Assembly: GCF_015354345.1 (NCBI RefSeq)
Contig: NZ_JADKYS010000002.1
Coordinates: 310,001 to 374,000 of the forward strand
From: Methylophilus sp. 14
Lineage (GTDB): Bacteria > Pseudomonadota > Gammaproteobacteria > Burkholderiales > Methylophilaceae
DNA: 64,000 nucleotides
Direction: 5' to 3'
The notes beneath the pieces were generated by a model. That model saw only the letters and a program-made list of their open reading frames with translations, did not search any database and was not told where the DNA came from. Below are positions 9,269-51,190 of the stretch, in pieces (the first letter of the stretch is position 1; every line of letters begins with the position of its first letter). The position numbers and the translations under genes were made by a program.

Positions 9269-9852
9269 TTTTCGCTTTGTCAGCGAGTTACTTTTCTTTG
9301 CTTGCACAAAGAATAAGTAACCAAAAGAAATGCACCCCAGCTTCCGCTTTTATCCTGTGCTACTCGGCTTGCCGGGCGTCAATCAAAAACTCGTCCTGAC
9401 AAGCCACAAACAACGTGGCTTGTTGCGGGACTCAAACAGTTGATTGCCGAAGGCCCCCGTCAATCCTGCGCTACTCGGCGCGTCAGATGGGGACCCCGAA
9501 CACCATGCGACTGCAATCGTCCGTGAGTTCAATAAAAAGAATCTGGTTTTTTAACCGTCCAAATTTCCACGCTGCTACTTAAATGAGATAAATCCCATTC
9601 ATCACGCTGAGTAGCGGAAACAAAATAAGAGTAGAGGGAGCGACTGTCCGAATCCCGCGGTGGGCTGCGGGGTTTGTAGCCCGCTAGGTTGAATTTCGTG
9701 ACCGGCTTATGCCTAAGTCCAGCAAAGCATCGGACGAAAGTCCTAAGCTGAGCAATGCAAGGGAGCCTTTAGGCCGTGATGGCTGGGTGCCCTCTTCTTT
9801 GGTTACTTTCTGAGGGGCAAGCATCAGAAAGTGACTCGCCAACAAGGCGAAA
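9269..9852. repeat. Long palindromic structured element, copy A (about 584 bp)
   Basis: The two ends are inverted copies of each other (TTTCGCTTTGTCAGCGAGTTAC at the left, complement of AGTGACTCGCCAACAAGGCGAAA at the right), and the inverted similarity continues inward for over 200 bases per arm to a non-paired centre of about 110 bases. Inside the arms are further hairpins: GTTACTTTTCTTTG with CAAAGAA/AAGTAAC (9287-9321), ACAAGCCAC/GTGGCTTGT with loop AAACAAC (9399-9423), GTGGGCTGC/GTAGCCCGC with loop GGGGTTT (9660-9684) and ACTTTCTGA/TCAGAAAGT near 9804-9834. The centre holds a block identical in all copies (CGTCAGATGGGGACCCCGAA, from 9481). It lies between the 3' end of nadC and the 5' end of the gspE-like gene. 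Reading frames inside it are not protein-like. Confidence 0.85.
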
Positions 9853-9925
9853 CGAAGCGCCAGAGAGATCAGTCAGTGTTAGAGTATCTGGACTAGGCTC
9901 ACTACAGAATTACTTTGAAGCTGAT

Positions 9926-10798
9926 CTATAGCTTCATCTCAATCCGCATACTCAAATCCACTGCCTGTATATTTTTAGTCAGCGCGCCAATCGAAATTCT
10001 ATCCACGCCAGTGTCTGCAATCGCTCGCACAGTGGTTAAATCGACATTGCCTGAAGCTTCCAGCAAGGCGCGTTTCTGGTTAATCGCCACAGCTTCGCGC
10101 AGGTCTGTTAGTGTAAAGTTATCCAGCAAAATACTGGTCGCGCCAGCGGTTAATGCTTGTTGCAGTTCATCCAGGTTTTCTACTTCAATCTGAATATTAT
10201 TGGTTTGTTTTAAGGCAAATGCCGCCGCGAGTACTGCGGCAATTGAGCCTGCGGCCGCAATATGGTTTTCCTTAATCAGGATGCCATCGTATAAGGCGAG
10301 CCTCTGGTTGGCGCCACCACCGGTAAGTACGGCATATTTTTGCGCCAAACGCAGCCCTGGCAGGGTTTTGCGGGTATCGAGAATCTGTGTTGGCAACCCG
10401 GCAATCGCATCGACATAGCGGCGGGTATGCGTCGCCACGGCAGACAGGGTTTGCAGAAAGTTGAGTGCCGGGCGCTCTGCGCTAAGCATGGCGCGGGCAT
10501 CGCCTTGAATGTGGACCAGTGGCTGGTTAGGCGTCACCTGGTCGCCATCTTTGACCAGCCATTCCAGTTGTATGTCCGCATCCAGTTGCGCAAAGCATTG
10601 GGCGAACCAGGCGCAGCCACAAATCACGGCGGCTTCGCGGCTGATAATGGTGGCGCTGGCTTGCGTGCCTGCCGGGATCAGCGCCGCTGTCAGGTCGCCG
10701 TTGCCCATGTCTTCTGACAAGGCCAGGCTTACCTGTTGGCTGATGATGGCGGCGTTCAAATAAGCGGGTAAGTGTTGGTAAAGTGCAGAGGTGGTCAT
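9926..10798 (-). CDS. nadC: Nicotinate-nucleotide pyrophosphorylase (carboxylating)
   Basis: A 290-residue quinolinate phosphoribosyltransferase. It converts quinolinate and PRPP to nicotinate mononucleotide, CO2 and pyrophosphate in de novo NAD synthesis. Family blocks seen are ALSEDMGNGDLTAAL, the substrate-binding ERPALNFLQTLSAVATHTRRYV, DTRKTLPGLRLAQKYAV with GGGANQRLALYDGILIKENH, and the C-terminal barrel strands IEVENLDEL, ILLDNF and GVDRISIGALT. The ATG at 10798 gives the usual length; an upstream GTG would add 13 atypical residues. It is transcribed alone; nadA and nadB are not in the window. Confidence 0.95.
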   Translation of the reverse strand: MTTSALYQHLPAYLNAAIISQQVSLALSEDMGNGDLTAALIPAGTQASATIISREAAVICGCAWFAQCFAQLDADIQLEWLVKDGDQVTPNQPLVHIQGDARAMLSAERPALNFLQTLSAVATHTRRYVDAIAGLPTQILDTRKTLPGLRLAQKYAVLTGGGANQRLALYDGILIKENHIAAAGSIAAVLAAAFALKQTNNIQIEVENLDELQQALTAGATSILLDNFTLTDLREAVAINQKRALLEASGNVDLTTVRAIADTGVDRISIGALTKNIQAVDLSMRIEMKL

Positions 10799-10860
10799 TA
10801 GGTTGCCAGCAAGGTTAAAAATTATGCATGTGACCATTCTAAGCCCATGCCAAAAGCTAT

Positions 10861-10925
10861 TATAATAAAACTACCCCAAGACACGCGATGTTTGGACATG
10901 CGCTTTTTGTCATGGGGTATTTTTT
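10861..10925 (+). promoter_or_regulatory. TATAAT box followed at once by a terminator-like hairpin
   Basis: A perfect TATAAT (10861-10866) would start transcription near 10873. There an RNA could fold TACCCCAAGACA with TGTCATGGGGTA (10872-10919), with a nested GATGT/ACATG stem, followed by six T (10920-10925). No good -35 hexamer is seen. The structure sits between divergent nadC and the GST gene, 38 bases before the GST start. It could be an attenuator in the GST leader or a roughly 50-nt terminated RNA. Confidence 0.5.
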
Positions 10926-10962
10926 CGGTAAAAGTATCTAACCTTTTGGCTCACATCACACT

Positions 10963-11586
10963 ATGCAGCTTTTATATACGGTAAACAGTCCTTATGCACG
11001 CAAGGTGCGTATTGTGGCCATTGAAAAACATGTTGATTTAACGCTGACTGAGGTGGTGCTGTCGGCACCAGACTGTCCGGTGAGCCAACATAACCCGTTA
11101 GGGAAAGTACCTGTACTGGTACTCGATGATGGTGATGCCTTGTATGACTCGCGGGTGATTGTTGAGTACCTAGATCACCGTACGCCGGTGGCGCATCTGA
11201 TTCCGCAAGATCACTCTGCCAAAATTAAAGTACGCCGCTGGGAAGCATTGGCCGATGGCGTTTGTGATGCTGCTGTGGCCGTGATGCTGGAGCAGCGCAA
11301 GCCAGAAGCGCAGCAATCTGCGGCCTGGATTGAAAAGCAATTTGCCAAAGTGACTGCCGGATTGACCACATTGGATGATGATTTGCTGAAGAAAAAGTGG
11401 TGTGTGAACGAAACCTTTAGCTTGGCCGATATTGCGCTGGGCACTGCGCTGGGTTACCTGGATTTACGTTTTAAAAGCGTGCAGTGGGAAGGTAAATATT
11501 GGCAAGAGAAGTTTCCCAACCTGGCCAAACACTATGGTGTGTTAGTCAAGCGCCCCAGCTTTAAACAAACCATGCCGCAGCCCTAA
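10963..11586 (+). CDS. yibF: Glutathione S-transferase family protein (YibF-like)
   Basis: A 207-residue GST. The N-terminal thioredoxin-fold domain starts LLYTVNSPYARKVRI, with the SPYARK turn that holds the catalytic Ser/Cys position and the cis-Pro block NPLGKVPVL followed by DSRVIVEYLD, which binds the glutathione gamma-glutamyl group. An all-helical C-terminal domain follows with FSLADIALGTALGYLDLRF. Length and pattern match the YibF subgroup, whose substrate is not known. The gene stands alone; its 5' leader contains the hairpin described at 10861-10925. Confidence 0.85.
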   Translation: MQLLYTVNSPYARKVRIVAIEKHVDLTLTEVVLSAPDCPVSQHNPLGKVPVLVLDDGDALYDSRVIVEYLDHRTPVAHLIPQDHSAKIKVRRWEALADGVCDAAVAVMLEQRKPEAQQSAAWIEKQFAKVTAGLTTLDDDLLKKKWCVNETFSLADIALGTALGYLDLRFKSVQWEGKYWQEKFPNLAKHYGVLVKRPSFKQTMPQP

Positions 11587-11779
11587 TTTGAGGCTTTTGC
11601 AGAATCTCGCGCATCCGTGCGAGCATTCTGCTTACTCTCATCTCTCTCCGCTCTTAAGCCGATGGTATGCGCAAGGCACGCCTGTATTCATCCAAGCTAT
11701 TGTTCTGTTTTGTTTTTTCTCTGAAATAGCGATTTCTGCCATTAACTATTCTTTACGCATGCGTTTTGCCTATTTTTTA

Positions 11780-11809
11780 TTGATAAAGCAAATGATAATT
11801 GTTATCATT
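11780..11809 (+). promoter_or_regulatory. Sigma-70 promoter overlapped by a Fur box
   Basis: TTGATA (11780-11785), a 17-base spacer and TATCAT (11803-11808) make a near-consensus promoter. Across its spacer and -10 lies AATGATAATTGTTATCATT (11791-11809), an almost perfect 9-1-9 inverted repeat. It matches the Fur 7-1-7 core TGATAAT-N-ATTATCA at 13 of 14 positions. Fur with iron bound would block RNA polymerase here, so the downstream gene at 11844, and perhaps those after it, should be induced by iron starvation. Confidence 0.85.
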
Positions 11810-11843
11810 TAGGAATAAACAAAACAAATGATGAATAAATTCT

Positions 11844-12038
11844 ATGCAAGCAATGAATGCCCCCGTCAAAAAGAGATTGCTCGAACTGCTCGATGAGCTG
11901 ATTGCGCATGATGGTTTTGGCAGTATCAAGGTGGATATCCGCTTGTTAAAACGCGGACAAAAAGAAGTCATTATCGACTGTGGCAAGCAGTACCGCTTTG
12001 TCGTCGATTTTGAAACGGCAACCGCCATAGAAAAATAA
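11844..12038 (+). CDS. Small Fur-regulated protein, DUF2292/YezD-like
   Basis: A 64-residue cytoplasmic protein. A basic helix (KKRLLELLDELIAH) leads into GFGSIKVDIR and a strand segment ending CGKQYRFVVD, which recalls the GxGSVxIxI...EKxRF pattern of the DUF2292/YezD family; the match is by eye and loose. It is the first gene after the Fur-controlled promoter, about 29 bases from the predicted transcription start. No strong ribosome site is visible; an internal ATG at 11853 is an alternative start. Function unknown; the regulation suggests a role in iron limitation. Confidence 0.6.
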   Translation: MQAMNAPVKKRLLELLDELIAHDGFGSIKVDIRLLKRGQKEVIIDCGKQYRFVVDFETATAIEK

Positions 12039-12189
12039 ATTTATTCTCTCAATTTCAGTTTTTAACCATGCGTTGACAGCATGGAGATTGAAATACTCAA
12101 CGGTGTGGGTCCGTGAGACTTATTTTAGAGGTAGCGCAATGGCCTTCGAGAGGAAGGGGAACAAGCGCTTGTTGAGGAGATTTAAAATC

Positions 12190-12846
12190 ATGAAAGTTTC
12201 AGCATTAATTATCGCTTTGGGCATGGCATTTAGTGGTTCTGCTTTTGCTACACAAGCAGTTTGGAATTCAACTACCCCATGGGGTACAGCGACACCAACC
12301 AGCTACGCTGAGTGGAATATTTTTAATGGCACGACCGATACGACACCAGAAGTGGCTTTGACAGCGGGCACGACTGCTTCTGTACAAGAAACGACTGGTG
12401 CTTCTTTCATCACTGGTGGCGGCAACATTTACAGCTTTTCTGGCGCAACGTCTTTCACCGCAACATTGAGTGGCGCAACCAGCGGTTTGTTTGACGTTTA
12501 CCTGCGTATCGGTACCTTGGGCACTCTGGCCAGCACGACTGCCACATTGAATGGCGTGTCTGCCACGTCTGTGCTGCAATTCAATGAAGATCAAGGCACA
12601 GTCATGGGCGGCGCAACTGCTGAGCAAGAACTCTACTGGAAGTGGAGCAGCGTGAGTGCAGCCAGCCTGTACACCTTCAAATTCAACTCTACTTCATCAA
12701 GCATGAGCCTAGATCAATTGGCACTGGCTGCTGTGTCTGTTCCAACTGTGACACCAGTACCAGAACCAGAGGCTTACAGCATGATGGCATTGGGCCTGGG
12801 CTTGATGGCTTTCGCTGCACGTCGTTCTGCTAAAAACAATGCCTAA
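12190..12846 (+). CDS. PEP-CTERM sorting-domain protein
   Basis: A 218-residue secreted protein: signal peptide (KVSALIIALGMAFSGSAFA, cleavage near residue 21), a Thr/Ser/Gly-rich beta-sandwich-like body without cysteine, and a C-terminal PEP-CTERM signal (VPEPEAYSMMALGLGLMAFAARR) made of the PEP motif, a membrane helix and a basic tail. An exosortase (EpsH/XrtA type, encoded elsewhere) would cut it for surface or matrix export. The start was chosen at ATG 12190, preceded by GAGGAGA. It lies 151 bases after the Fur-linked small gene and 79 bases before the TonB receptor on the same strand. Confidence 0.85.
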   Translation: MKVSALIIALGMAFSGSAFATQAVWNSTTPWGTATPTSYAEWNIFNGTTDTTPEVALTAGTTASVQETTGASFITGGGNIYSFSGATSFTATLSGATSGLFDVYLRIGTLGTLASTTATLNGVSATSVLQFNEDQGTVMGGATAEQELYWKWSSVSAASLYTFKFNSTSSSMSLDQLALAAVSVPTVTPVPEPEAYSMMALGLGLMAFAARRSAKNNA

Positions 12847-12867
12847 TTTTAATTAGTGCGACGACTA

Positions 12868-12894
12868 CAAAGGGGCGTTCGGCCCCTTTGTTTC
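12868..12894 (+). terminator. Intrinsic terminator after the PEP-CTERM gene
   Basis: AAAGGGGC-GTTCG-GCCCCTTT followed by GTTTC forms a strong hairpin with a short T tract. It lies 22 bases after the PEP-CTERM stop and about 32 bases before the TonB receptor start. Confidence 0.8.
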
Positions 12895-12925
12895 TATCCA
12901 ACTCTAGAATAAAAAGTGCTCCCTC

Positions 12926-15277
12926 ATGGCAAGCTCTGATTCCTCCTGGCAACAACTTTTTAAAAAGCCTGATTTATTGCGACGATCTGCCGGTGTGATC
13001 GTTATTTGCAGTTGGCTAGCGACCGCTTCATGGTCTTTGTTAGTACAGGCAGAGGAACAATTGGTTGAAGATGTCGTGAGTGAAAATGCGCAGACCCCAG
13101 CAAACAAACCGCCGAAAAAGGCAGACTCAGAGCAGGTAGAAACCTTGCCTGAAGTGTCTGTGACAGGAGCCAAAATAAAAGAACCGGAGACGGGGATCAA
13201 TCGGACGTTGCCGATGACCACAATTACTAGCGAACAATTGCAGCGCGCCCAGCCCAGCAATATTTTTGATGCCGTGCGGTCTGTGCCTGGTGTGTCTATT
13301 TCGGGTGGTCCACGACCTAGCGGCATGACATTCAATATTCGCGGTTACGGCGATAACGAAGATGTCATGGTGAAAGTAGATGGCGTGCCCAAAGGATTTG
13401 AAAAGTACCGCATGGGTGGCACGTTTATCGAGCCTGAGTTATTGAAAAGTATCGAGGTGCAGCGTGGCCCGCAAATCACCAGTGGTTCAGGGTCATTAGG
13501 GGGCACCATTAATGCGACCACCAAAAACGCCGAAGATTTTTTGAAGCCCGGCCAGAAATATGGCGGCAAGGTCAAGTTTGGCTATGGCAATAACAGTGAT
13601 GAGTATTCGCGCTCTTACCTGTTGTACGCACGCCCAGATGAGCGGGTGGATATTTTGTATAACTACTCTAATCGCCAGGCAAATAACATGACGTTGGGCG
13701 ATGGCACCAAGCTTGAGAGTTCGGCCATTGAGTCCGTTTCGCATTTGCTCAAGTTGAGCTTATTCCCTACTGAAGATCTGCAACTAGTCACTTCTATCGT
13801 CAAATTCGATGATACTGGCTTACAGCCGTACGATGCGACTGGTGGTCAGCCTGGGTTTTTTGGTAACGTGATTCGTACAGTCGACGATTTGACCTGGTCT
13901 GAAACTGTGAATTATGACCCGGAAAGTCGATTGGTTAATTTGAAAGCGACCGTAGGTGCTGGACACACTAATCTGCATGATTTAATCGGACAGGGGCCGT
14001 CATTTGGTTCTACATTTAATCCGCGACAACCTCAGTGTAATGGGGTTGTTAATACCTCAAATCCTGCTGATACAACGACTTGTCGCGGCAATCTGAATGA
14101 TACTTACGAGTATAAGACCAAGACGGTAGATATTAGCAACCGCGCTGTACTGTTCGAGTCAGATTCATTCACGGCTTCATTGTTGGCAGGTTATCAATAC
14201 AACTCAAGTGAACGGGAAATTTCAAGGCTTTATGATAACCTCAATACGTTCATGCAATCCTTATATCCTAATGGATTCAATGCCTCAGCACCACCCGGAC
14301 GTAAGTCGTTTGAGGCGATGTATCTACAGCCCAAGCTGGAGATTGGTCAATTCACGGTGACCCCAGGCTATCGGCAAGACCGTTATAAAGTAGAGGCCGC
14401 TGGTGGGACGCTTGCTTTACTGGAGCCGTATGATCAGAAAAGCACGATTCGATTTAAAGAAGAAACCTGGAGCTTGGGCCTGGCTTATGATGCGTTTGCC
14501 AAAACTAACCCGGACAAGCTGACCTTTTACAGCAACTATGGCCAAGGTTTTCGGCCACCGCTGGTTGATGAATACTTTACGCAAGGCCCTTTTAGCCGTT
14601 GCCGTAATGGGTTGATGCCCATCAATGGCCCTGCATCGCTGATTTGCGGTGAGTTATATCAACCACAGCGTTCAGAGACGACGGAGGTTGGCGTGAGTTA
14701 CCAAACACCCCATCTGTTTAATACTGATGTCTGGTTCTCCGGCAAACTTAACTTTTACCATACCTACACGTCACATTTGTTGCTCTCATTACGAGAGGAT
14801 GACGATGGCAATATCACTCAAAATGGCTGGGAGCGCCGTAACGGTGTAGAGGTCGAAAGTTTTATGCAGTATCACGGTTGGTATATGCGCAGCGGTTACT
14901 CACGGATTAATGGTGAAATATTTAATGGCTTGGCTTTCGCACCATTGTTTACAGCGCCCGGTAACGCATTGAATATTAATCTCGGTGCAGAATTGACCAA
15001 AAGCCTGGATGTGAATGTGACTTATAGAAAAGTCTCAGAGCGTGACATCCTGATCAGCGGGGATGGCACACAAAACAGTCGTTATGTGTTCGGCCAGCAG
15101 GATGGTTATGAAATGTGGAATGCCGGCATACGGTTAAAAGTGAATGAACAGCTGACATTGAGGCTGATTGGTGAAAACCTGAAAAACGAACAGTACCGCC
15201 TTGATGGCAGCATGGGCGGCTTGGGTATCTACGGTCCCGGCCGCAATGTGAAGTTTTTGGTGGAGATGACGTATTAA
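12926..15277 (+). CDS. TonB-dependent receptor, heme/hemoglobin-receptor-like
   Basis: A 783-residue outer-membrane receptor. After an N-terminal signal region (hydrophobic core near residues 23-41) comes a TonB box-like LPEVSVTG, a plug domain (TITSEQLQRAQPSNIFDAV, VRSVPGVSISGG, NIRGYGDNEDVMVKVDGV, IEVQRGPQITSGSGSLGG) and a 22-strand barrel ending in VEMTY. The segment YGQGFRPPLVDEYF sits where heme receptors carry the FRAP box, so heme or a hemoprotein is a reasonable but unproven ligand. Its start lies only about 30 bases after a terminator, with no room for a normal promoter. Read-through from the Fur-controlled upstream genes is one explanation. Confidence 0.88.
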   Translation: MASSDSSWQQLFKKPDLLRRSAGVIVICSWLATASWSLLVQAEEQLVEDVVSENAQTPANKPPKKADSEQVETLPEVSVTGAKIKEPETGINRTLPMTTITSEQLQRAQPSNIFDAVRSVPGVSISGGPRPSGMTFNIRGYGDNEDVMVKVDGVPKGFEKYRMGGTFIEPELLKSIEVQRGPQITSGSGSLGGTINATTKNAEDFLKPGQKYGGKVKFGYGNNSDEYSRSYLLYARPDERVDILYNYSNRQANNMTLGDGTKLESSAIESVSHLLKLSLFPTEDLQLVTSIVKFDDTGLQPYDATGGQPGFFGNVIRTVDDLTWSETVNYDPESRLVNLKATVGAGHTNLHDLIGQGPSFGSTFNPRQPQCNGVVNTSNPADTTTCRGNLNDTYEYKTKTVDISNRAVLFESDSFTASLLAGYQYNSSEREISRLYDNLNTFMQSLYPNGFNASAPPGRKSFEAMYLQPKLEIGQFTVTPGYRQDRYKVEAAGGTLALLEPYDQKSTIRFKEETWSLGLAYDAFAKTNPDKLTFYSNYGQGFRPPLVDEYFTQGPFSRCRNGLMPINGPASLICGELYQPQRSETTEVGVSYQTPHLFNTDVWFSGKLNFYHTYTSHLLLSLREDDDGNITQNGWERRNGVEVESFMQYHGWYMRSGYSRINGEIFNGLAFAPLFTAPGNALNINLGAELTKSLDVNVTYRKVSERDILISGDGTQNSRYVFGQQDGYEMWNAGIRLKVNEQLTLRLIGENLKNEQYRLDGSMGGLGIYGPGRNVKFLVEMTY

Positions 15278-15285
15278 CTGCCGCC

Positions 15286-15615
15286 TTACAGCGGTGGCAT
15301 ATCGTCATCTGCCAGCAGTTGCAGGTTGTTTTTATGACGCAATGACTGGCGCTCGTTCAGACGTTTTTGGGCTGGGCTAGGGAAGTCGGTAAAGCTGATC
15401 AGGCTGCGATCAATCAAGATACTGATTAAATCTTCCAGTACCCGCGCCAGCTGAATATCACTCTCGCGGAAAGTGTGATGTTTTTTGAGTTCGTCATCCA
15501 GAAAACACAGATACTCGGTATCCGAATTATCAATTTCAACCCAGTCTGCGTTCACTTTCGTGTCTGGGCTGGCAGCAATAATTGCACCTTCATTATTTTT
15601 GAGTACGTAGGCCAT
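15286..15615 (-). CDS. Conserved hypothetical protein ('tryptophan synthase beta-like' small protein)
   Basis: A 109-residue soluble protein whose pattern (MAYVLKNNEGAII, then DIQLARVLEDLISILID and ISFTDFPSPAQKRLNERQSLR) matches short proteins often labelled tryptophan synthase subunit beta-like in proteobacterial genomes. That label has no functional support: the protein is far too short for TrpB and lacks its PLP lysine region. It faces the TonB receptor gene with eight bases between the two stops. Confidence 0.65.
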   Translation of the reverse strand: MAYVLKNNEGAIIAASPDTKVNADWVEIDNSDTEYLCFLDDELKKHHTFRESDIQLARVLEDLISILIDRSLISFTDFPSPAQKRLNERQSLRHKNNLQLLADDDMPPL

Positions 15616-15695
15616 CAGGTGTCATTCCTCGTCACTTGGCGTTCATTATGATTATATTATGCAAGCAGAAGCAATAACCATGCCTCGCGAATGGG

Positions 15696-16790
15696 TTAAA
15701 TGGCGCCAGTGATAATCCCACCGCCCAGACAGACATTGCTTTCATACACCACCACGCTTTGACCAGGTGTGATCGCCCATTGGTGTTGACCAAAACGGAT
15801 AGTCGCTTCTTCGGCATTCACCGCATCCACTTCACATGGCGCATCTGGCTGGCGGTAGCGCGTTTTGGCGGCATAGACCCAATTGGTGCGAGGCTCTTCA
15901 CCACTAATCCAGTGCAACTGGCCCGCTTTCAAGCCATCGCTTTGCAACAGTGGATGGTCATGACCTTGCACCACAATCAGCTCGTTATCCGCCATATGCT
16001 TGGCCACGACAAACCAGGGTTCGCCATTGCTGTCACGGCTACCACCAATTTTAAGCCCTTGGCGCTGACCAATGGTGTAATACATCAGGCCCTCGTGTTC
16101 GCCCACCACTTTGCCTTCTGGTGTACGCATCACGCCAGGGTGGCGTGGCAGGTAGCGTTGCAAAAATTCCTGAAACGGACGTTCGCCAATAAAGCAAATG
16201 CCGGTGGAATCCTTTTTCTCGGCATTGGCCAGGCCGTGTTCACGCGCGATTTCGCGCACTTCACGTTTGAGATATTTGCCGAGAGGGAACAGCGTTTTTG
16301 ACAGTTGTGCCTGGTTCAGACGTGACAAAAAGTAGCTCTGGTCTTTGCTGCCGTCATCGGCTTTGAGCAGCTGAAAGTTGCCAGGTTGAATCGGGTTTTC
16401 ACGCACTTGTGCATAATGGCCAGTCGCAATCAGGTCAGCCCCCATGCCCATGGCGTGGTCCAAAAACGCTTTAAACTTGATTTCTGCGTTACACAAAATA
16501 TCCGGGTTGGGCGTACGGCCCGCCTGGTATTCCTGCAAAAAGTTAGCGAACACTCGCTCTTTATACTCGGCGCTAAAATTCACGGTTTCAATGTCAATAC
16601 CGATCCTATCGGCTGCAGAAACGGCGTCGATTAAGTCTTGGCGCGAAGAACAATATTCATCATTATCATCGTCCTCCCAGTTTTTCATAAACAAACCGGT
16701 GACTTGATAGCCTTGTTGTTTCAGCAACAAGGCAGTGACGGAAGAATCAACACCGCCGGACAACCCGACGATGACATGTGGCTTACTCAT
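15696..16790 (-). CDS. mnmA: tRNA 2-thiouridylase MnmA
   Basis: A 364-residue ATP pyrophosphatase that places sulfur on U34 of Lys, Glu and Gln tRNAs. The PP-loop SGGVDSS spans residues 11-17; the catalytic cysteines are Cys99 (NPDILCN) and Cys198 (GICFIG), matching Cys102 and Cys199 of E. coli. The tRNA-binding [14 protein letters not shown] and the C-terminal beta-barrel ([18 protein letters not shown]) are present. The ATG at 16790 overlaps the nudJ stop (ATGA), and the nudJ-mnmA order is also seen in enterobacteria, so the pair is likely one operon. Confidence 0.96.
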
Positions 16791-32852: not shown

Positions 32853-32946
32853 GAAGGTAATTCTTCGATTTCTTGGCTATATTCATCGTCAGAATTATCT
32901 GGTGGGGATTGATGCTCGCGCGGATTTTGTTGTTTGTTAGGTTACG
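32851..32946. repeat. Conserved upstream module of palindromic element, copy B
   Basis: GAGAAGGTAATTCTTCGATT (32851-32870), overlapping the arfB TGA stop, then GGGGATTGATGCTCGCGCGG (32904-32923) and TTGTTTGTTAGGTT (32929-32942) correspond block by block to sequences in front of copy C, and more loosely copy A. It belongs to the 709-base gene-free interval 32853-33561. Confidence 0.6.
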
Positions 32947-33488
32947 TTTCGCCCTTAGGCGAGTTACTTTTCTTTGCTTGCCCAAAGAACAAGTAACCAA
33001 AAGAAAGTGCACCCCAGCTTCCGCTTGATTCCTGCGTTGCTCGTCAAAATAAGCGGTCACGAAACTCAACCTAGTAGCTCACACAGAACGTGAGCTACTG
33101 CGGGATTCGAACAGTCGCTCCCTTCTTCCTTATTTTGTCTGCGCTACTCGGCGCGTCAGATGGGGACCCCGAACACCATACGACTGCAACCATCGATAAC
33201 TTTAATAAAAGAATCTGGTTTTTAACCGTCCAAATTGCTACGGTGCAAGTTTGGCGCGAATAATCCCATTCCATCACGCTGAGTAGCGGAGACAAAAATA
33301 AGAGTAGAGGGAGCGACTGTCTGAATCCCGCGGTGGCTTGCGTCTTTTGCAAGCTGCTAGGGCGAGTTTCGATGGACGCCCACTTTGTTGAGCAACGCAA
33401 GGGAGCCGCAGGCCGTGATGGCTGGGTGCCCTCTTTTTGGTTACTTTTTTGGGGCAAGCAAAAAAAGTAACTCGCCAACAAGGCGAAA
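32947..33488. repeat. Long palindromic structured element, copy B (about 542 bp)
   Basis: Same layout as copies A and C. Ends are inverted (TTTCGCCCTTAGGCGAGTTAC against the complement of AGTAACTCGCCAACAAGGCGAAA). Arm hairpins: GTTACTTTTCTTTG with CAAAGAA/AAGTAAC (from 32963), GTAGCTCAC/GTGAGCTAC with loop ACAGAAC (33074-33098), GTGGCTTGC/GCAAGCTGC with loop GTCTTTT (33333-33357) and GTTACTTTTTT/AAAAAAGTAAC near 33439-33473. The left-arm stem sequence is unlike that of copy A but pairs equally well. The central block CGTCAGATGGGGACCCCGAA begins at 33154. The element lies between convergent arfB and argJ. Confidence 0.85.
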
Positions 33489-42496: not shown

Positions 42497-42556
42497 TTGT
42501 GCGTCCGTGGGTTAAAACATAAACCGCTATTTTAACCCAAACGGCTACGTTACGGA

Positions 42557-44233: not shown

Positions 44234-44302
44234 TTTTGTGCGTTACATCTTGTTACAATTTGCTTTAAAAGGCAATAACAGCAAAATTAAATTTATGTGA
44301 TG

Positions 44303-44320: not shown

Positions 44321-44386
44321 AATTCATTCATAAACTGGCGAGCATTCAATCAATACTTTGATCTCAAATTGCTTAAAGGGAGTGTC

Positions 44387-45091
44387 ATGGCTGCAGCGAA
44401 CATTTTGGTGGTAGAAGACGAACCGGCGATCCAGGAATTGCTGGCGTTGAATATCAAACAAGCGGGGCATCATGCGATCCGTGCCACCAGCGTTGAACAT
44501 GCGCAAATGCTATTACGTGAAACCATGCCAGACCTGATCTTGCTGGACTGGATGTTGCCAGGCATGAGCGGCATTGAGTTTGCGCGTCGCCTGAAATCAG
44601 ACAGCCTGACCAAAGAAGTGCCGATTATCATGCTGACCGCCCGTGGCGACGAGTTTGATAAAGTACGCGGCCTGGAAGTCGGCGCCGATGATTATGTGAC
44701 CAAGCCGTTCAGTCCTCGCGAGTTGAATGCGCGTATCAAGGCGGTGTTGCGCAGACGTGCACCGCAAATGACGGATGATCCGATTGAAATTGCCGGGTTG
44801 CACCTAGACCCGACCACCCACCGCGTGACTGGCCATAATGTGCATATTCCACTGGGCCCAACCGAGTTTAAGTTGCTGCACTTCTTTATGACCAATCCTG
44901 AGCGCGTACATAGCCGTACGCAATTGCTGGATAAAGTCTGGGGTGACCGTGTGTTCGTCGAAGACCGTACGGTGGACGTGCATATTCGCCGCTTGCGCAA
45001 TGCACTAGTGGCTTCCAAGCATGAAGAAATGATCCAGACCGTGCGTGGTTCCGGTTATCGCTTCTCGGTACATACCGATCCCGGTAATTAA
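44387..45091 (+). CDS. phoB: Phosphate-regulon response regulator PhoB
   Basis: A 234-residue OmpR-class regulator. The receiver domain has acidic residues Glu10-Asp11, phospho-acceptor Asp54 ([10 protein letters not shown]), Thr84 and Lys106; the winged-helix domain carries [14 protein letters not shown] and [16 protein letters not shown], both diagnostic of PhoB. The ATG at 44387 is preceded by AAAGGGAG. A Pho box upstream implies autoregulation. The sensor kinase gene phoR does not follow, which is unusual. Confidence 0.93.
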
Positions 45092-45201
45092 TCTGGCAGT
45101 TTTGCCCAGATTTATTTGAGCGTGACAGGGGTCGCGCTCTATCCTCAGGCAGGGTGTCGTGATACGCTTGCGCGTGTTGATTTTTCACGATTAAATAGCC
45201 C

Positions 45202-46830
45202 ATGAAACACCTTTTTACCCAAGCTTGCTCAGCTGCCACGTATCGCTGGTTGATACGTTTCTTTTGGCTGGCGCTCATCCTTTGGGTAGCCCTCACGTTC
45301 CGCCAGCATGGCATCAGCAACGACGAGTATGTGCAGCATACTTACGGCCAGATGCTGCTCGACTGGTATCAGTCCGGCTTTAAAGACCAGGACGCTTTTC
45401 ACTACCGCAATCTCTACCTTTACGGCGGTCTGTTTGACATCATTGCCGCTGCGCTGGACCCCTATATCCCGATCATGATCTGGGATATTCGCCATTTGCT
45501 TTCGGCTTTGTTTGGCCTGCTGGGTTTTTACGGCGTCTCCAGGTTTGCGCATTTGCTGGGCGGTGAGCGTCTGGCGTTGCTGGCGATGACGCTGCTGTTC
45601 CTCACCGTGTCATGGTCTGGCACCATGTTTACGCATACCAAAGATGTGCCGTTTGCCACCTGCATGTTATGGGCACTGTATGCCACCGCGCTGGTGGTGC
45701 GTGATATGGAAAACGTCAGTGGTAAAGCCATTGTGTTGCTGGGGTTCGCGGTCGGCGGCGCCTTGGGCTTGCGCGTCGGCGGCGCTTTTGCCGTGATTTA
45801 TCTGGTGTTGCTGGTGCTTACTCGGGTCTTGCTCGACCATAGATCTGAACGCACCCCGATCTGGTCGCGCTTACTGCGTATGGTGGTTGTTTTGCTGCCT
45901 GCCGCCGTGCTGGCGTTTGTCTTTATGGCAATGTGCTGGCCGTGGAGTGTGATTGAGCCGGACAACCTGCTGGAAGCAGCCAAGTCCTTCTCGCATTTTG
46001 ACTTTAATATGCAGACCATTGCCAATGGCGTGGTCTACAACATCAGCGAAGTGCCTCGCAGCTACCTGTTCCAATACCTGGCAGTCAAATTGCCAGAGGC
46101 GGCTTTGTTGGGCATTGTCAGCCTGCCCGTGATGTGGTTAGCGTGCCGACCAGCTCTGCGCCTGGCTGATCAGTCTACACGTATGGTCATGTACACTTTG
46201 TTGATGGGCATCTTATTCCCGCTCGTTTTTGTGATGGATGACCGGCCAGCACTCTATAACGGCGTGCGCCACTTTACCTTTTTGTTGCCTTTGCTGGCGA
46301 TTTTCTCCGCTTGGACTATTGTGGCCGTGTGGCAGGCATTGGCCACTAGCAAATTACAGGCGCGAGTGGCTTATCAAGCGATTTGGACGGGCGTGATGGC
46401 TGGCCTGATGCTGGTGACGCTGGTCGATATTGTGCAACTGCATCCATACCAATACACCAGACTCAACCGCCTGGCAGGGGATCAAACGCAGGCCCAGTTT
46501 AAGTGGGAGGGCGATTACTGGTCGAGCGCCTTACGTGCCGCCACCGATCAACTCACCGAGATGCCTTTGCCTGCGCGTGACAAACCCTACTGGGTGGCCG
46601 CTTGTGTGGATACCCCGCAAATCGAACCTTACCTGGATGGCCGTTTTAGCGTCACCCGCCGTTGGGAAGAGGCCGACTTTTTCCTGTCCACCACCAATAT
46701 GCATTGCCATGAGGTCATGAAGGGCAAGCTGGTTGGGGGGGTGCAGCGGCAGGGCATGTGGCTGGCCGTGATTAAAGATCGTCGCCAATTACAAGGGGCT
46801 GACCGTCTGGCCACCCCGGCTAAAAACTAG
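45202..46830 (+). CDS. GT-C type membrane glycosyltransferase (ArnT/FlmK-like)
   Basis: A 542-residue inner-membrane protein with about ten to twelve helices and a soluble C-terminal part. The first periplasmic loop carries Asp-Glu (GISNDEYVQHTYG), the acidic motif of polyprenyl-phosphate sugar transferases. The rest (FTHTKDVPFATCMLWALY, PAALYNGVRHFTFLLPLL) is typical of PMT/ArnT-like GT39/GT83 proteins. With the GT2, GtrA and YdjC-type genes that follow it forms a set like that adding hexosamine to lipid A phosphates in Francisella and Bordetella; acceptor and sugar are inferred. Confidence 0.75.
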   Translation: MKHLFTQACSAATYRWLIRFFWLALILWVALTFRQHGISNDEYVQHTYGQMLLDWYQSGFKDQDAFHYRNLYLYGGLFDIIAAALDPYIPIMIWDIRHLLSALFGLLGFYGVSRFAHLLGGERLALLAMTLLFLTVSWSGTMFTHTKDVPFATCMLWALYATALVVRDMENVSGKAIVLLGFAVGGALGLRVGGAFAVIYLVLLVLTRVLLDHRSERTPIWSRLLRMVVVLLPAAVLAFVFMAMCWPWSVIEPDNLLEAAKSFSHFDFNMQTIANGVVYNISEVPRSYLFQYLAVKLPEAALLGIVSLPVMWLACRPALRLADQSTRMVMYTLLMGILFPLVFVMDDRPALYNGVRHFTFLLPLLAIFSAWTIVAVWQALATSKLQARVAYQAIWTGVMAGLMLVTLVDIVQLHPYQYTRLNRLAGDQTQAQFKWEGDYWSSALRAATDQLTEMPLPARDKPYWVAACVDTPQIEPYLDGRFSVTRRWEEADFFLSTTNMHCHEVMKGKLVGGVQRQGMWLAVIKDRRQLQGADRLATPAKN

Positions 46831-46871
46831 CGCCAATCCACTACAATAACCGCACCGAACCTGCTAACCTG

Positions 46872-47855
46872 ATGACCATGACTACTGTTGACGCTCACCG
46901 CCCTACCGCCCAGCCGCATATCACGGTGATGGTGCCTGCTTACAATGAAGAAAAAAACATTGCACATACGCTGCAAAATATCCGTAGCGTGTTGCAGCAG
47001 ATGTCACCGCATTGGGATATGGTAGTGGTCGATGATGGCAGCCGTGACCAGACCTCACAGGTGGTGCAGTCACTGGTGGAAGAGTGCCATGTCACTTTGG
47101 TCAGGTTTTCGCGTAACTTTGGCAAAGAAAACGCCATTAGCGCTGGCCTGAGTTATGCCAAAGGTGACGTGGTTATCTGCATGGATGCGGATGGCCAACA
47201 TGCTTCAGAGCTCATGTTTACCATGCTGGAAAAGTGGCGTGAAGGCTATGACATGGTGTATGCCGTGCGCCAGGACCGTGAGCAGGAGTCTTCCTTTAAA
47301 TTATGGGGTTCGCGCCTGTTTTACCGCATGATGAGCGCCAGTACCCATGTTGAAATCCCGCGTGATGCGGGTGATTTCCGCCTGATGAACCGCGCGGTGG
47401 TGGATGCTTTGTGCGCTTTGCCTGAGCGTAACCGTTTTATGAAAGGCATTTATGCCTGGGTCGGCTACAAGTCCATCGGCATTCCTTATACGCCTTTGCC
47501 ACGTTTGCATGGCGAGAGTGCTTATTCAAAACTCAAATTGATTGCCCTGGCGTGGACGGGCATTACCAGTTTCTCGGTCTTGCCATTGCGCCTGGCCAGT
47601 TTAACCGGTGCCACACTTGCCTTGTTGGCATTTGCCTATGGCGCCGTGGTGGTGATTGATGCCTTGTTTTTCCATGAATCTGTGCCTGGTTGGCCGACGG
47701 TGGTGGCCAGCATGATGTTCTTCGCTGGTGTGCAACTGCTGTTTATTGGTGTGCTTGGCGAATACCTCGCCCGCGTCTATGACGAAGTCAAAGGCCGTCC
47801 GCCTTATATTGTGGCTGAAGTCGTTGCGCCTGTCGCAACGAGGCGCCAGCCCTGA
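46872..47855 (+). CDS. Polyprenyl-phosphate glycosyltransferase, GT2 (GtrB/ArnC/DPM1-like)
   Basis: A 327-residue membrane-anchored GT2 enzyme. The catalytic domain starts ITVMVPAYNEEKNIAHTL and carries VVVDDGSRDQT, CMDADGQHA (DxD) and RDAGDFRLMNRAVVDAL; two C-terminal helices (about 225-250 and 262-290) anchor it. Such enzymes load a sugar from UDP or GDP onto undecaprenyl phosphate on the cytoplasmic side. It is 41 bases after the GT-C gene and 8 before gtrA. Confidence 0.88.
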   Translation: MTMTTVDAHRPTAQPHITVMVPAYNEEKNIAHTLQNIRSVLQQMSPHWDMVVVDDGSRDQTSQVVQSLVEECHVTLVRFSRNFGKENAISAGLSYAKGDVVICMDADGQHASELMFTMLEKWREGYDMVYAVRQDREQESSFKLWGSRLFYRMMSASTHVEIPRDAGDFRLMNRAVVDALCALPERNRFMKGIYAWVGYKSIGIPYTPLPRLHGESAYSKLKLIALAWTGITSFSVLPLRLASLTGATLALLAFAYGAVVVIDALFFHESVPGWPTVVASMMFFAGVQLLFIGVLGEYLARVYDEVKGRPPYIVAEVVAPVATRRQP

Positions 47856-47863
47856 GTGTTGAT

Positions 47864-48238
47864 ATGCGCGCCTCGGTCTTAGGGTTTGTCAGCGTCGGTG
47901 CACTGGCGGCGGCCGTGCATTATGTTGTGGCATTGCTGGCACACGCCTGGGGCTGGCAGCCTGCAGGGGCGAATTGGCTAGGCTTTTTATGCGCCTTTCC
48001 CGTGAGTTATATTGGGCATCGCCGCTGGTCGTTTCGTGGCACACAGGCCAGCCATGTGGCTGCCTTTTTCAAATTTCTGGCCGTGGCCTTGCTTGGCTTT
48101 TTTGGCAACCAGGCCTTGTTGTGGCTGGCGTTAACTTATACGCCATTGCCTTTTTGGTTTGTGCTTGGTGTGGTGATGGTGTTGATTGCGGTCAGCACCT
48201 GGTTGCTGAGCCGTTTCTGGGCTTTTCAGCATGATTAA
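47864..48238 (+). CDS. GtrA family membrane protein
   Basis: A 124-residue protein with four hydrophobic helices and the GtrA patterns FVSVGALAAAVHYVVALLAH, NWLGFLCAFPVSYIGHRRWSF and STWLLSRFWAF. GtrA proteins are proposed to flip polyprenyl-phosphate sugars to the periplasm. Its position directly after the GT2 gene supports that role for the product of the pathway. Confidence 0.87.
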   Translation: MRASVLGFVSVGALAAAVHYVVALLAHAWGWQPAGANWLGFLCAFPVSYIGHRRWSFRGTQASHVAAFFKFLAVALLGFFGNQALLWLALTYTPLPFWFVLGVVMVLIAVSTWLLSRFWAFQHD

Positions 48239-48246
48239 GGCGTTGT

Positions 48247-49077
48247 ATGGCTAAGGTGATTATTTGTGCAGATGACTATGCCCAGTCGGCCGCGATTGAT
48301 GCCGCTATCCTGACGCTGATTGAGCGCGGGATATTAACCGCCACCTCTTGCATGACGCTGAGTCCACGCTGGCCAGAGAGTGCGCGGCAGCTCACCCCGC
48401 AATTGCGCATCAAGGCAGACCTTGGCCTGCATCTCGATTTCACCCAGTTTTCGCGTAGCATGCGAGTCTCTCATCCCGTGCTGGTGGTACGTAGCTTAAC
48501 TGGCTTGCTCAGCACACAAACCGTGATGGCCAATATCAAGCAACAGCTGGATGCGTTTGAAGATGCGTTACATACGCCGCCAGATTATATTGATGGCCAT
48601 TTACACGTCCATCAGCTGCCCATCATCCGTGAGGCACTGCTCACCATTTTGCAACATCGATACAGCCACTTGGCCCCGGCTAAGCGGCCATGGTTGCGCA
48701 TATCCAGTCCCCCGGTTGGCAGTGGTCTCAAGGCGCGTATCATCCATTGGCTGGGGGCAGAAAAGCTGAAGCAACTGGCTGCGGCGGCCGGGTTCCGTGT
48801 GTCACCCATATTATTGGGCGTATATGATTTCCAGGGGGATGCCGCAGCCTATCAGGCGCGTTGGTTACACTGGGCCAGACAACTCAAGCAACTGGACATC
48901 CCTGAAAAAGACCTGCCCCCCGTCCTGATGTGCCATCCGGCACGCCCGACACAAGTCATCGACCCGCATGACCCAATCGCCATCGCCAGGATGATTGAAT
49001 GGCAAGTCATGCAGTCGGCCGACTTTTCTGCCTGGCTGACCATGGCGGATATACAAGCTGTTAAAGGCGCATCGTGA
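48247..49077 (+). CDS. YdjC/ChbG-family carbohydrate deacetylase (NaxD/HpnK-like)
   Basis: A 276-residue polysaccharide-deacetylase-like TIM-barrel enzyme. Metal and catalytic residues are Asp9-Asp10 (IICADDYAQ), His62 (LGLHLDFT) and His118/His120 in YIDGHLHVHQLP. It carries no signal peptide, so it would act at the cytoplasmic face. In Francisella NaxD and Bordetella LgmC, relatives of this fold deacetylate undecaprenyl-phosphate hexosamine; in hopanoid loci HpnK is another relative. Context with GT2, GtrA and GT-C favours the first role. Confidence 0.8.
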   Translation: MAKVIICADDYAQSAAIDAAILTLIERGILTATSCMTLSPRWPESARQLTPQLRIKADLGLHLDFTQFSRSMRVSHPVLVVRSLTGLLSTQTVMANIKQQLDAFEDALHTPPDYIDGHLHVHQLPIIREALLTILQHRYSHLAPAKRPWLRISSPPVGSGLKARIIHWLGAEKLKQLAAAAGFRVSPILLGVYDFQGDAAAYQARWLHWARQLKQLDIPEKDLPPVLMCHPARPTQVIDPHDPIAIARMIEWQVMQSADFSAWLTMADIQAVKGAS

Positions 49078-49087
49078 AAGGGTCGCA

Positions 49088-50566
49088 TTGAGTTTTGTTC
49101 AGGCCTGGGCAAGTCATGCCCCCATGTGGCAACGCGCCACAGTGGCACTATTGATAGGCGCGCTTAGCGTATTTGGTTTTGCGCCCTATGGTTTGTTCTG
49201 GCTGCCCTGGCTCACCTTGGCGGTGCTGCTTTACTTATGGCAACAGGCGGCCACACCTGCACAGGTCTTTAAACTGGGCCTGGCCTTCGGTCTCGGCCTG
49301 TATGGATTTGGCATCTATTGGATTTACATCAGTCTGCATATCTTTGGCGGCATGCCCTGGTGGTTTGCCGGGTTTGCCACCTTGTGCCTGTGTGCATTTA
49401 TGGCGCTGTTTCCGGCACTTGCCGGTTACCTGGCCAAGCGATTGCGGTATTTGTTGTGGGCCGCACCGCTGTTGTGGGCGTTGTCAGACTGGGTGCGTAG
49501 CTGGATTTTCACCGGCTTCCCCTGGTTAACGCTAGGCTATACGCAGGCACCAGACAGCCCATTGGCAGGGTTCTTACCCGTGCTGGGTGTCTATGGCGTC
49601 TCTGCGCTGGTGATGCTGTTTGCGGCCTGTTTGGTCGCAGTGGCTAGCTCTGGTCAGCGTTTGCGCGTCGCAGTTGTCCTGTTGATTTTGCTCATCAGTG
49701 GCAGTGCGCTTACCCAGGTGCCGTGGACCAAGCCTGTCGGCAAGTCAGTCAGTGTGGCCTTGTTGCAAGGCAATATCAGCCAAACCATCAAATGGTCGCC
49801 CGAGCATGCCGAACAGACATTACGTCAATATTTCGACATGGTGCAGCAAGCCAACGCGCAGTTAATCGTCCTGCCGGAAACCGCGTTACCCGTATTGCTT
49901 GAACAGCTTGCCCCTGTGTACCTCGATGCACTGAAACAACACGCACAAAAACAGCAAGGCGATTTGCTGGTCGGTGTCGTAGAAAGTAAGCAGGGTGAAT
50001 ACTTTAATAGCGCTATCAGTCTCGGCGCGTCACCCAACCAATCCTATTCCAAAAGCCACCTGGTGCCTTTCGGCGAATTTATTCCACTCAAAAGCGTGTT
50101 CGGCTGGATTTACCGCGACTGGCTGCATATGCCGCTGAGTGATTTATCGCGCGGTACCTCTAAAAAACCACTGCTCATCGCCGGGCAAAAAGTCGGCGTC
50201 AACATCTGTTACGAAGACGTATTTGGCGAAGAAATTGCACAACAACTGCCGCAAGCAGAGTTGCTGGTGAATATCAGCAACGATGCCTGGTATGGCCAAT
50301 CGTTTGCGGCGGATCAGCATATGCAGTTTAGCCAGGTGCGTGCGATAGAAACCGGACGCATGGTGTTGCGTAGCACCAATACCGGGGCGACGGCCATTAT
50401 TGATAAAAACGGGCAGGTAATTCAACATGCGCCACATGATGAGGCGGTGGTCTTGACCGGGAATGCGCAGAGTTATCGTGGGCAGACGCCTTATGTGTGG
50501 TGGGGGAACTGGGCGTTTCTGGTGTTGAGTGTTGGTGGGTTGTTTTGGATTTGGCTGAGAAGGTAA
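49088..50566 (+). CDS. lnt: Apolipoprotein N-acyltransferase
   Basis: A 492-residue Lnt that adds the third acyl chain to lipoproteins. Six or more helices in the first 205 residues are followed by the nitrilase-like domain with catalytic Glu264 (VLPETALP), Lys322 (YSKSHLVPFGEF) and Cys374 (VNICYEDVF), and a last anchoring helix. The start is a TTG at 49088 with AAAGGG upstream; the first ATG (Met13) would trim the N-terminus. The final codons overlap the conserved module preceding palindromic element copy C. Confidence 0.95.
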   Translation: MSFVQAWASHAPMWQRATVALLIGALSVFGFAPYGLFWLPWLTLAVLLYLWQQAATPAQVFKLGLAFGLGLYGFGIYWIYISLHIFGGMPWWFAGFATLCLCAFMALFPALAGYLAKRLRYLLWAAPLLWALSDWVRSWIFTGFPWLTLGYTQAPDSPLAGFLPVLGVYGVSALVMLFAACLVAVASSGQRLRVAVVLLILLISGSALTQVPWTKPVGKSVSVALLQGNISQTIKWSPEHAEQTLRQYFDMVQQANAQLIVLPETALPVLLEQLAPVYLDALKQHAQKQQGDLLVGVVESKQGEYFNSAISLGASPNQSYSKSHLVPFGEFIPLKSVFGWIYRDWLHMPLSDLSRGTSKKPLLIAGQKVGVNICYEDVFGEEIAQQLPQAELLVNISNDAWYGQSFAADQHMQFSQVRAIETGRMVLRSTNTGATAIIDKNGQVIQHAPHDEAVVLTGNAQSYRGQTPYVWWGNWAFLVLSVGGLFWIWLRR

Positions 50567-50644
50567 TTCTTTAGGTTTGTGGTTGTAAGTTATTGTAGGG
50601 TGGGCATCGATGCCCACGCGGTTGTGGTTGTTTGTTAGGTTGCC
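50556..50644. repeat. Conserved upstream module of palindromic element, copy C
   Basis: TGAGAAGGTAATTCTT (50556-50571) covers the last codons of lnt and matches 15-16 bases at the arfB stop before copy B. GGTGGGCATCGATGCCCACG (50600-50619) is a perfect hairpin-forming palindrome (TGGGCATCGATGCCCA), and TTGTTTGTTAGGTT (50628-50641) is identical to copy B. It belongs to the 676-base gene-free interval 50567-51242. Confidence 0.6.
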
Positions 50645-51190
50645 TTTCGCCTTTTCGGCGACCATTCTTTCTTATGCTTGTCCATAAGAAAGAAGGCAAA
50701 GAACAAGACACCCCAGCTTCCGCTTGATTCCTGCGTTGCTCGTCAAAATAAGCGGTCACGAAACTCATCCTGGTAGCTCACACAAAACGTGAGCTACTGC
50801 GGGATTCGAACAGTCGCTCCCTTCTTCCTTATTTTGCCTGCGCTACTCGGCGCGTCAGATGGGGACCCCGAACACCATGCGACTGCAACCGCTAGCTAAT
50901 TCAATAAAACAGAATATGGTTTTTTAACCGTCCAAATTTCCACGCTGCTACTTAAATGAGATAAATCCCATTCATCACGCTGAGTAGCGGAAACAAAATA
51001 AGAGTAGAGGGAGCGACTGTGTGAGCTCCGCAACAAGCCACGAAGTGTGTGGCTTGTCAGGGCGAGTTTCGTGACCGGCTTATTTTGTTGAGCAACGCAA
51101 GGGAGCCGAAGGCCGTGATGGCTGGGTGTCGTCCTCTTTGGTTACTTTCTGGGGGACAAGCACCAGAAAGTGACTCGCCAACAGGCGAAA
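50645..51190. repeat. Long palindromic structured element, copy C (about 546 bp)
   Basis: Third copy. Left terminal hairpin TTCTTTCTTATG/CATAAGAAAGAA (around 50666-50695) has a different stem from copies A and B but is perfectly paired. Further hairpins: GTAGCTCAC/GTGAGCTAC, loop ACAAAAC (50773-50797); ACAAGCCAC/GTGGCTTGT, loop GAAGTGT (51033-51057), a stem that copy A uses in its left arm; ACTTTCTGG/CCAGAAAGT near 51143-51172. The arms share long inverted blocks such as GCGTTGCTC, AAAATAAG, GGTCACGAAACTC and CAGTCGCTCCCT. The central block CGTCAGATGGGGACCCCGAA begins at 50854. The element lies between convergent lnt and the RND gene. Confidence 0.87.

Follow-up and report, generated by a model that had tools for sequence, protein, structure and literature searches.

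Paired-arm elements in the window

The DNA considered here, called the window, is a stretch of 64,000 nt from a Methylophilus genome of 3.0 Mb in 15 contigs (its own genome, G000; G-numbers denote the genomes compared and L-numbers the fetched loci). It carries three copies, A, B and C, of an intergenic paired-arm element of about 550 bases, built from two inverted (head-to-head) copies of one unit of about 220 nt. Copy A lies between two minus-strand genes, 7148-8974 and 9926-10837 (a type II secretion system ATPase and a quinolinate phosphoribosyltransferase), and is not in a convergent position. Copy B has a gene with an RF-1 (release factor) domain on one side and an argJ-like gene, so named from a reading of the sequence, on the other, and copy C lies between the genes of an apolipoprotein N-acyltransferase and an AcrB-type pump. 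The copies and the folding module of each of their arms are as follows.

9270..9852, plus strand: copy A, paired-arm element, with ends TTTCGCT...GGCGAAA
32947..33488, plus strand: copy B, paired-arm element
50645..51190, plus strand: copy C, paired-arm element
9356..9479, plus strand: left-arm folding module of copy A (covariance model R1, 98.5 bits)
9606..9729, minus strand: right-arm folding module of copy A (covariance model R1, 84.5 bits)
33033..33152, plus strand: left-arm folding module of copy B (covariance model R1, 121.9 bits)
33278..33399, minus strand: right-arm folding module of copy B (covariance model R1, 95.4 bits)
50732..50851, plus strand: left-arm folding module of copy C (covariance model R1, 123.9 bits)
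50979..51099, minus strand: right-arm folding module of copy C (covariance model R1, 120.4 bits)

All three copies start with TTTCG and finish with CGAAA, and the ends of the family are constant (TTTCGCC...GGCGAAA). An earlier, sequence-only reading of this DNA had placed three elements at these positions, where they were indeed found, and had noted a conserved centre, which corresponds to the core CGTCAGATGGGGACCCCGAA present in all three copies. Overall, the elements and the covariation that it reported are real and the family proved larger than described, while several details were wrong. The copies had been called near-identical, but their global identity is 71.2% for A and B, 73.0% for A and C and 80.5% for B and C. 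Nor is the element restricted to three copies, as the own genome contains, besides fragments, 26 dispersed matches whose coverage of copy A is 66-100% (at least 95% in 24 cases).

Architecture of the unit and local fold of the arms

Each unit consists of a terminal hairpin (TTTCGCC..GGCGAGTTACTTT...AAAGTAACC) followed by a folding module of about 120 nt. The module measures 119-123 nt by pattern in the genus and 124 nt in copy A, and the two modules of a window copy are separated by about 125 nt. Its outer stem leads through a conserved internal loop (AACTC / CTCARACA) to an inner stem of 9 bp that closes a 7-nt loop. The inner stem had been recognised in the sequence-only reading, correctly, at the same place in both arms, together with the observation that five of nine pairs differ between the left arms of A and B/C with both partners changed. 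The statement that every such stem is matched by its complement holds at 9/9 for four of the six stems, the right-arm stems of A and B reaching only 7/9. The outer stem, a second covarying stem in each arm, was absent from that account.

Outer stems fall into three main types, which makes it possible to ask which sides belong together. Among the 65 of 99 copies with both arms parsed by pattern, the two sides of the outer stem were of the same type within the left arm in 65/65 cases and within the right arm in 61/65 (25.9 and 38.8 on average under permutation; of the four right-arm mismatches, two concern copies left unclassed by the type rule). The left and right arms, in turn, agreed in type in only 20/65 copies (permutation mean 23.5). 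The types thus match within arms and not across them, which indicates that the conserved feature is the local fold of each arm and that pairing between the arms is not conserved. On the same grounds, the half-kilobase palindrome proposed earlier as the folded object was ruled out as the functional fold. The right arm of copy B (33278..33399) has a chimeric outer stem, with a 5' half of type II and a 3' half of type I. The inner stem carries the same allele in both arms in 4/65 copies; across 93 of the 99 copies, 16 distinct alleles occur within the genus, seven of which account for 176 of 186 arms. In the window and 0.8 Mb of G007, every one of the 24 unit matches belongs to an inverted pair (12/12).

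The element contains no conserved open frame, in agreement with the earlier reading, and a decayed protein-coding transposon was rejected on the basis of open reading frame (ORF) content and module lengths: an ORF of at least 100 aa lying wholly inside the element occurs only in copy B (33095-33481) and not in A or C, and module lengths vary by 1-4 nt among alleles in the genus. Some variants of the architecture were also seen. An insert of about 80 nt is nested in the right arm at L025 and L149, and end-only repeats of about 60 bp without arms are present at L070 (the argJ locus of G017) and in G007 at about 1486957-1487014. Cargo between arms was considered for L173 and L170 and rejected, as their arms lie about 1 and 0.7 kb apart and enclose other genes (by ORF reading, with no profile search).

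Covariation and the level of folding

Covariation in the modules is real. In 17 diverse modules, 22 of 32 pairs had changed on both sides, and the covariation score of 0.540 compares with 0.240 (sd 0.015) in shuffles, slid structures scoring no more than 0.204; since the same sequences had yielded the structure, the comparison is biased in its favour. In 66 aligned covariance-model matches, an alignment fitted to the model and therefore leaning towards it, all 31 of 31 pairs showed two-sided changes, with a score of 0.525 against 0.153 (sd 0.008) for shuffles and at most 0.102 for slid structures. Both score and two-sided changes exceeded all 500 shuffles and all slid controls. A further measure, the number of further pair types, gives covariation no support (37 against a shuffled mean of 39.6 in the 17 modules, 89 against 80.5 in the 66 matches). 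DNA folding of the six window arms was only mildly better than that of shuffles (z of -1.52, 0.10, -1.81, -0.51, -2.23 and -2.75). Around the inner hairpin, the motif AACTC-hairpin-CTCARACA is nearly, not wholly, fixed across families, and the hairpin that it encloses varies greatly in length and sequence.

The mismatches that remain in the stems bear on whether DNA or RNA is the folded molecule. In a structured RNA, G.U pairs are expected to stand far above A.C pairs, and a control of seven distinct tRNAs from the fetched loci gave 10 G.U and 0 A.C in 146 pairs. When the units are read inward, all pairs together contain 53 G.U and 63 A.C; the 46 non-Methylophilus units contain 35 G.T and 43 A.C. 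With one unit taken per locus (31 in all), the interior pairs of helices 1 and 4 make up 338 cells and include 4 G.T and 13 A.C, which differs from the tRNA control (Fisher p 1.5e-4), while on the opposite strand the same counts become 13 to 4 and are not distinguishable from tRNA (p 0.26). Helix 3 points in the same direction as helices 1 and 4 (2 G.T, 5 A.C). Helix 2 has the opposite sign (16 G.T, 4 A.C), probably owing to ambiguous alignment; it was excluded from the summed count together with terminal pairs, a choice made after the all-pair counts were known. In helix 1, whose sequence is variable, 250 of 275 interior cells are Watson-Crick.

The numbers are small; they are read as pointing to stems maintained as DNA, to their rewriting by some DNA process, or to folding of the strand that runs outward. 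Folding as DNA fits somewhat better than folding as RNA: the small set of inner-stem alleles, together with A.C at least as frequent as G.U, suggests DNA-level folding or rewriting rather than a large non-coding RNA (ncRNA). The sequence-only reading had taken the paired changes as the mark of selection on folding; the covariation stands, and the inference needs care in view of the same two observations. As to Rfam 15, no match at gathering score was obtained in the window, and 18 relative loci gave only a tRNA, so that a known Rfam family is ruled out for the element.

Distribution across genomes

A search of 41 genomes with copy C gave matches in 23: in the own genome, in 19 of the 21 further members of the genus and in 3 of the 19 genomes from elsewhere. 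Five of those 21 genomes (G001, G005, G015, G018, G019) have just 0-3 match rows, and four of the five are less than 90% complete. The fetched loci contain 99 distinct full-length copies, orthologues in different genomes being counted separately, and dispersal with fixed ends is a matter of direct observation. The exact 24-base core pattern, searched in named genome contigs, returned five stretches (one Methylophilus metagenome-assembled genome), with the window's own records possibly left out.

Beyond the genus, collecting the copies and searching with a covariance model of one arm extended the family considerably. At E <= 0.001 the model found matches in 26 of 274 genomes from the class, counting the own genome; these represent 21 families, 20 of them further families, and with at most 13 candidates scored per genome the figure of 26 is a lower bound. 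Similar ends had been suspected in other proteobacteria, and both ends and arms do recur there. Among 30 groups of matches with a called gene on both sides (loci lacking such calls being omitted), 20 have one match and 10 have two; three of the 30 are from Methylophilus (L046, L047, L048). The 27 groups outside Methylophilus comprise 18 with one model match and 9 with two within 600 bp, of which eight are inverted and one, L172, has both units on one strand. Single units thus seem to occur in other genera, although a weak second arm may go undetected. Short end-hairpin matches were also obtained, together with one near-full unit in a Variovorax paradoxus record, the latter between convergent genes.

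Copy C had no match in phage or plasmid records. One exact motif each was seen in 14 viral contigs. Draft contigs often start or stop inside an element or within about 100 bp of one (G000 contigs C2, C3, C10 and C11; L039, L155, L162, L227), as expected, because repeats break assemblies.

Gene context and replication orientation

Placement behind genes is among the observed properties of the element. Classified by their neighbours, 97 of the 99 copies comprise 60 convergent, 34 tandem and 3 divergent cases, against 8 convergent, 46 tandem and 7 divergent among the 61 neighbour pairs of the window background (p 1e-9). The genes in this count are long-ORF calls rather than annotation, and such calls are unsafe in GC-rich loci.

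Orientation relative to replication is biased in two of the four complete genomes. Copies are oriented with the replication fork in 27/29 cases in G007 and 25/29 in G013 (52/58 in these two), and the four genomes pooled give 68/84 (p 8.5e-9). Among the convergent copies of G007 and G013, 20 of 23 are fork-oriented, and gene direction is therefore no explanation of the bias in these genomes. The terminus was taken from one dif-like match per genome, and the origin of G007 is backed by the GC-skew minimum at about 1.26 Mb; with the origin set at that minimum, 28/29 copies of G007 follow the fork. Each element enters the count once, without its second-arm row; two short and weak rows (G007 549263, G013 2422079) are omitted, and neither G009 nor G014, which are in several contigs, is covered.

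Site occupancy and search for a mobilising enzyme

Orthologous sites differ in whether they hold the element. At the argJ locus, an element match is found at 7 of 21 loci: four genomes (G000, G009, G007, G013) have the full element in one and the same orientation, G020 and G006 have it truncated by the end of a contig, and in G017 it is reduced to a single end repeat. Seven genomes (G004, G003, G012, G002, G014, G021, G008) have this locus empty. At a second site, G000 and G007 (L005/L111) have the element, and G013 and G021 (L130/L149) lack it. At another orthologous locus (L150, L153), G021 and G014 carry the element in opposite orientations, perhaps through inversion or replacement.

An enzyme acting on the element was sought among Y1 transposases. 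The AACTC..CTCARACA pattern occurs at 2 of 45 Y1 loci and the unit at one, and a TIRtron carried by a Y1 gene was ruled out on these figures. The 15 Y1 loci of the genus have no element in their flanks by blastn.

Companion repeats and flanking motifs

Copies often sit in mosaics with repetitive extragenic palindromic (REP) sequences of GTAG type. By-eye comparison placed all pattern matches of this REP, 15/15 in G000 and 16/16 in G007, within about 170 bp of a copy or fragment, on its upstream side and on the same strand, while roughly half of the copies have none upstream. A second companion is an outer flanking motif, AARGTNRTTCTTT. Of its seven matches in the window, five adjoin copies (expected by chance: 0.79 matches); of the eight in 0.8 Mb of G007, four lie no further than 300 bp from a full copy. 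The corresponding features of the window are listed below.

9141..9166, plus strand: degenerate GTAG-type REP upstream of copy A (3 mismatches)
50595..50620, plus strand: GTAG-type REP hairpin upstream of copy C (no mismatch to pattern)
9099..9111, plus strand: outer flanking motif AARGTNRTTCTTT, left of copy A
9904..9916, minus strand: outer flanking motif AARGTNRTTCTTT, right of copy A, inverted (1 mismatch)
32854..32866, plus strand: outer flanking motif AARGTNRTTCTTT, left of copy B (1 mismatch)
50560..50572, plus strand: outer flanking motif AARGTNRTTCTTT, left of copy C
51225..51237, minus strand: outer flanking motif AARGTNRTTCTTT, right of copy C, inverted

Two further repeats were observed. 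A CGTC-type REP (CGTCATTCCGGCGCAGGCCGGAATCCAG), labelled after PMC3733652, is located at 9199-9226, left of copy A. A sister REP, GTAGGGTGGGCAACTCGTTGCCCACGCG, flanks the REP-associated tyrosine transposase (RAYT) genes of G021, G020, G013 and G004 (L094-L097, L101), in a REPtron-like arrangement.

Interpretation and rival explanations

The reading that we favour, with about even confidence, is that the element is a dispersed, non-autonomous DNA repeat working like a very large REPIN (REP doublet forming a hairpin) or BIME (bacterial interspersed mosaic element), with an architecture of its own. Of the options raised by the sequence-only reading, a non-autonomous mobile element thus remains a leading one; a structured element with compensatory changes is retained as well, the large palindrome is abandoned and the ncRNA option is disfavoured by the DNA-level signs. 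Under the favoured reading, copies would spread as folded single strands at replication forks, with a hairpin-recognising nuclease supplied in trans, the copies themselves being without coding content. The folds would act at the DNA level and owe their conservation to being read by that enzyme or by a host protein, and copies would survive mainly at the 3' ends of genes because insertion there is harmless. The presence of related arms in distantly related bacteria suggests that the copies probably represent a kind of mobile or chromosome-structure element that has been overlooked. A broader proposal is put forward more tentatively, as possible rather than likely: an ancient, undescribed class of structured DNA elements across Gammaproteobacteria (in the GTDB sense), whose arms would be read as single-stranded or cruciform DNA by a putative non-Y1 hairpin enzyme or chromosome protein, with AACTC / CTCARACA as the recognition site, the variable stems as spacers, placement between convergent genes and polarity with the fork.

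Several observations weigh against the favoured reading of a REPIN-like repeat. The empty sites are between species, and loss is not separable from gain. No target duplication is evident in the flanks of copies, and the empty sites are too diverged to judge. In the close pair G014/G021, two candidate loci gave no clean insertion difference, one element being at a contig end and the other locus rearranged. The window copies are just 71-81% identical and hence old, so that any present activity is no more than putative. The single unit match among the 45 Y1 loci comes from fetched flanks, some of them cut by contig ends, in a search covering only Y1 genes, and the copy-rich genomes G007, G009, G003, G002 and G017 are without a PF01797 match. 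The background for convergent placement takes all neighbouring long ORFs in the window, tight and spurious pairs included, and not just roomy gaps. Fork orientation is not significant in G004 (12/17) and absent in G021 (4/9), and the wobble asymmetry consists of few mismatches in helices picked after the counts had been seen.

Three other explanations have to be set against the favoured one. A structured RNA in 3' untranslated regions, whereby the message coming in from either of two convergent genes would meet the arm on its own side first, both arms having the same orientation for their reader, and the fold would stabilise or terminate the mRNA, would account for the placement of copies behind genes and for covariation with conserved loop nucleotides, which is RNA-like. 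It also fits the finding that 15 of 20 units with no second model match nearby have a same-sense upstream gene (p 0.04), or 14 of 18 when L046 and L047, which are pairs by nhmmer, are left aside. We consider it unlikely, since on the strand carried by the mRNA A.C exceeds G.T in helices 1 and 4, contrary to tRNA, with helix 3 in agreement and the doubtfully aligned helix 2 opposed; nor does it predict co-orientation with the fork between convergent genes, and the Rfam searches found no such family. A host-kept role as a DNA cruciform or hairpin site for a protein has been proposed for some BIMEs. Applied here, it would have the host retain the element at 3' ends as a binding site for a nucleoid protein, gyrase or a termination protein, which agrees with the convergent placement, the fork polarity in two genomes, the orthologous position retained in several species, the mostly Watson-Crick outer stems of variable sequence and the breadth of 21 families. 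Copy number and positions, however, vary strongly among species, five other genomes of the genus hold next to no matches (four of these being the incomplete ones), and fork polarity is lacking in G021, so that this explanation appears quite unlikely.

The paired changes themselves could be mutational and not selected, if the two sides of a stem are rewritten at once, by correction on the hairpin as template during replication or by exchange of blocks among copies. The concentration of inner stems in seven alleles is in line with this, as are the fork polarity and the rarity of one-step intermediates (the 53 G.T and 63 A.C cells against 493 two-sided ones). As a full explanation it is improbable, leaving unexplained both the near-invariant unpaired motifs across families and the constant inverted-pair architecture in the genus; mutational rewriting and the spread of a REPIN-like DNA repeat can nevertheless act together.

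If the favoured reading is true, a class of intergenic DNA with a wide distribution has escaped notice. With tens of natural copies in each Methylophilus genome and stems that covary, the element would offer a ready test of selection on the secondary structure of DNA, as opposed to RNA, in bacterial chromosomes, and it would be a lead to a hairpin-recognising enzyme or chromosome protein. It would also serve as a warning that strong base-pair covariation is by itself no proof of a functional RNA.

Comparison with known repeat systems

The element was not found described in open-licence PubMed Central text, including parts of PMC2267715 and PMC12306157, and a relative may be present in figures or supplements. 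The comparisons that follow are with known systems as described in the papers cited. Miniature inverted-repeat transposable elements (MITEs) such as NEMIS, ERIC and RUP (PMC3733652) have inverted ends, no coding content, a dispersed distribution and a proposed mobilisation in trans. The element likewise has terminal inverted repeats (TIRs), lacks coding content and shows presence/absence polymorphism, in its case between species only. MITEs, however, measure 70-300 bp with TIRs of 15-30 bp (PMC3733652), whereas the arms of the element are about 220 bp long and contain structured modules. BRE, the Beta-proteobacterial repeat element, is also betaproteobacterial and mostly intergenic, but it is described in PMC3110155 as 75-91 bp long, often tandem and not co-oriented with the fork, the comparison being made by description and not by sequence.

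Transposases of the IS200/IS605 group, which are Y1 enzymes, act on the lagging-strand template (PMC6006769). This corresponds to the strand pattern of the element in G007 and G013; it is not matched in G004 and G021, and no Y1 gene is linked to the element. GTAG and CGTC REPs and the TIRs of TIRtrons (PMC3733652) are proteobacterial and lie mostly between convergent or unidirectional genes, as the element broadly does. TIRtron TIRs flank a Y1 gene, whereas 44 of 45 Y1 loci are without a unit match; the distinction follows the description in PMC3733652 and not TIR sequences, and the element may be kin to one of those TIRs. REPs are 20-40 bp long with a GTAG or CGTC tag (PMC3733652). The repeated unit of the element is not such a palindrome with an unpaired tag, as it is about 220 nt long and ends in TTTCGCC, and GTAG- and CGTC-like repeats adjoin some of its copies.

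A close parallel in kind is the REPIN/BIME system, in which spread in trans by RAYT has been proposed for REPINs (PMC3116915). The element differs from it in the size of its unit, its two-tier fold, its own near-invariant loop and the absence of a linked Y1 transposase. Like REPINs and BIMEs, it is an inverted pair of hairpin units, forming inverted doublets in the genus, and in both systems many intergenic copies carry compensatory changes in their hairpins (PMC3116915).

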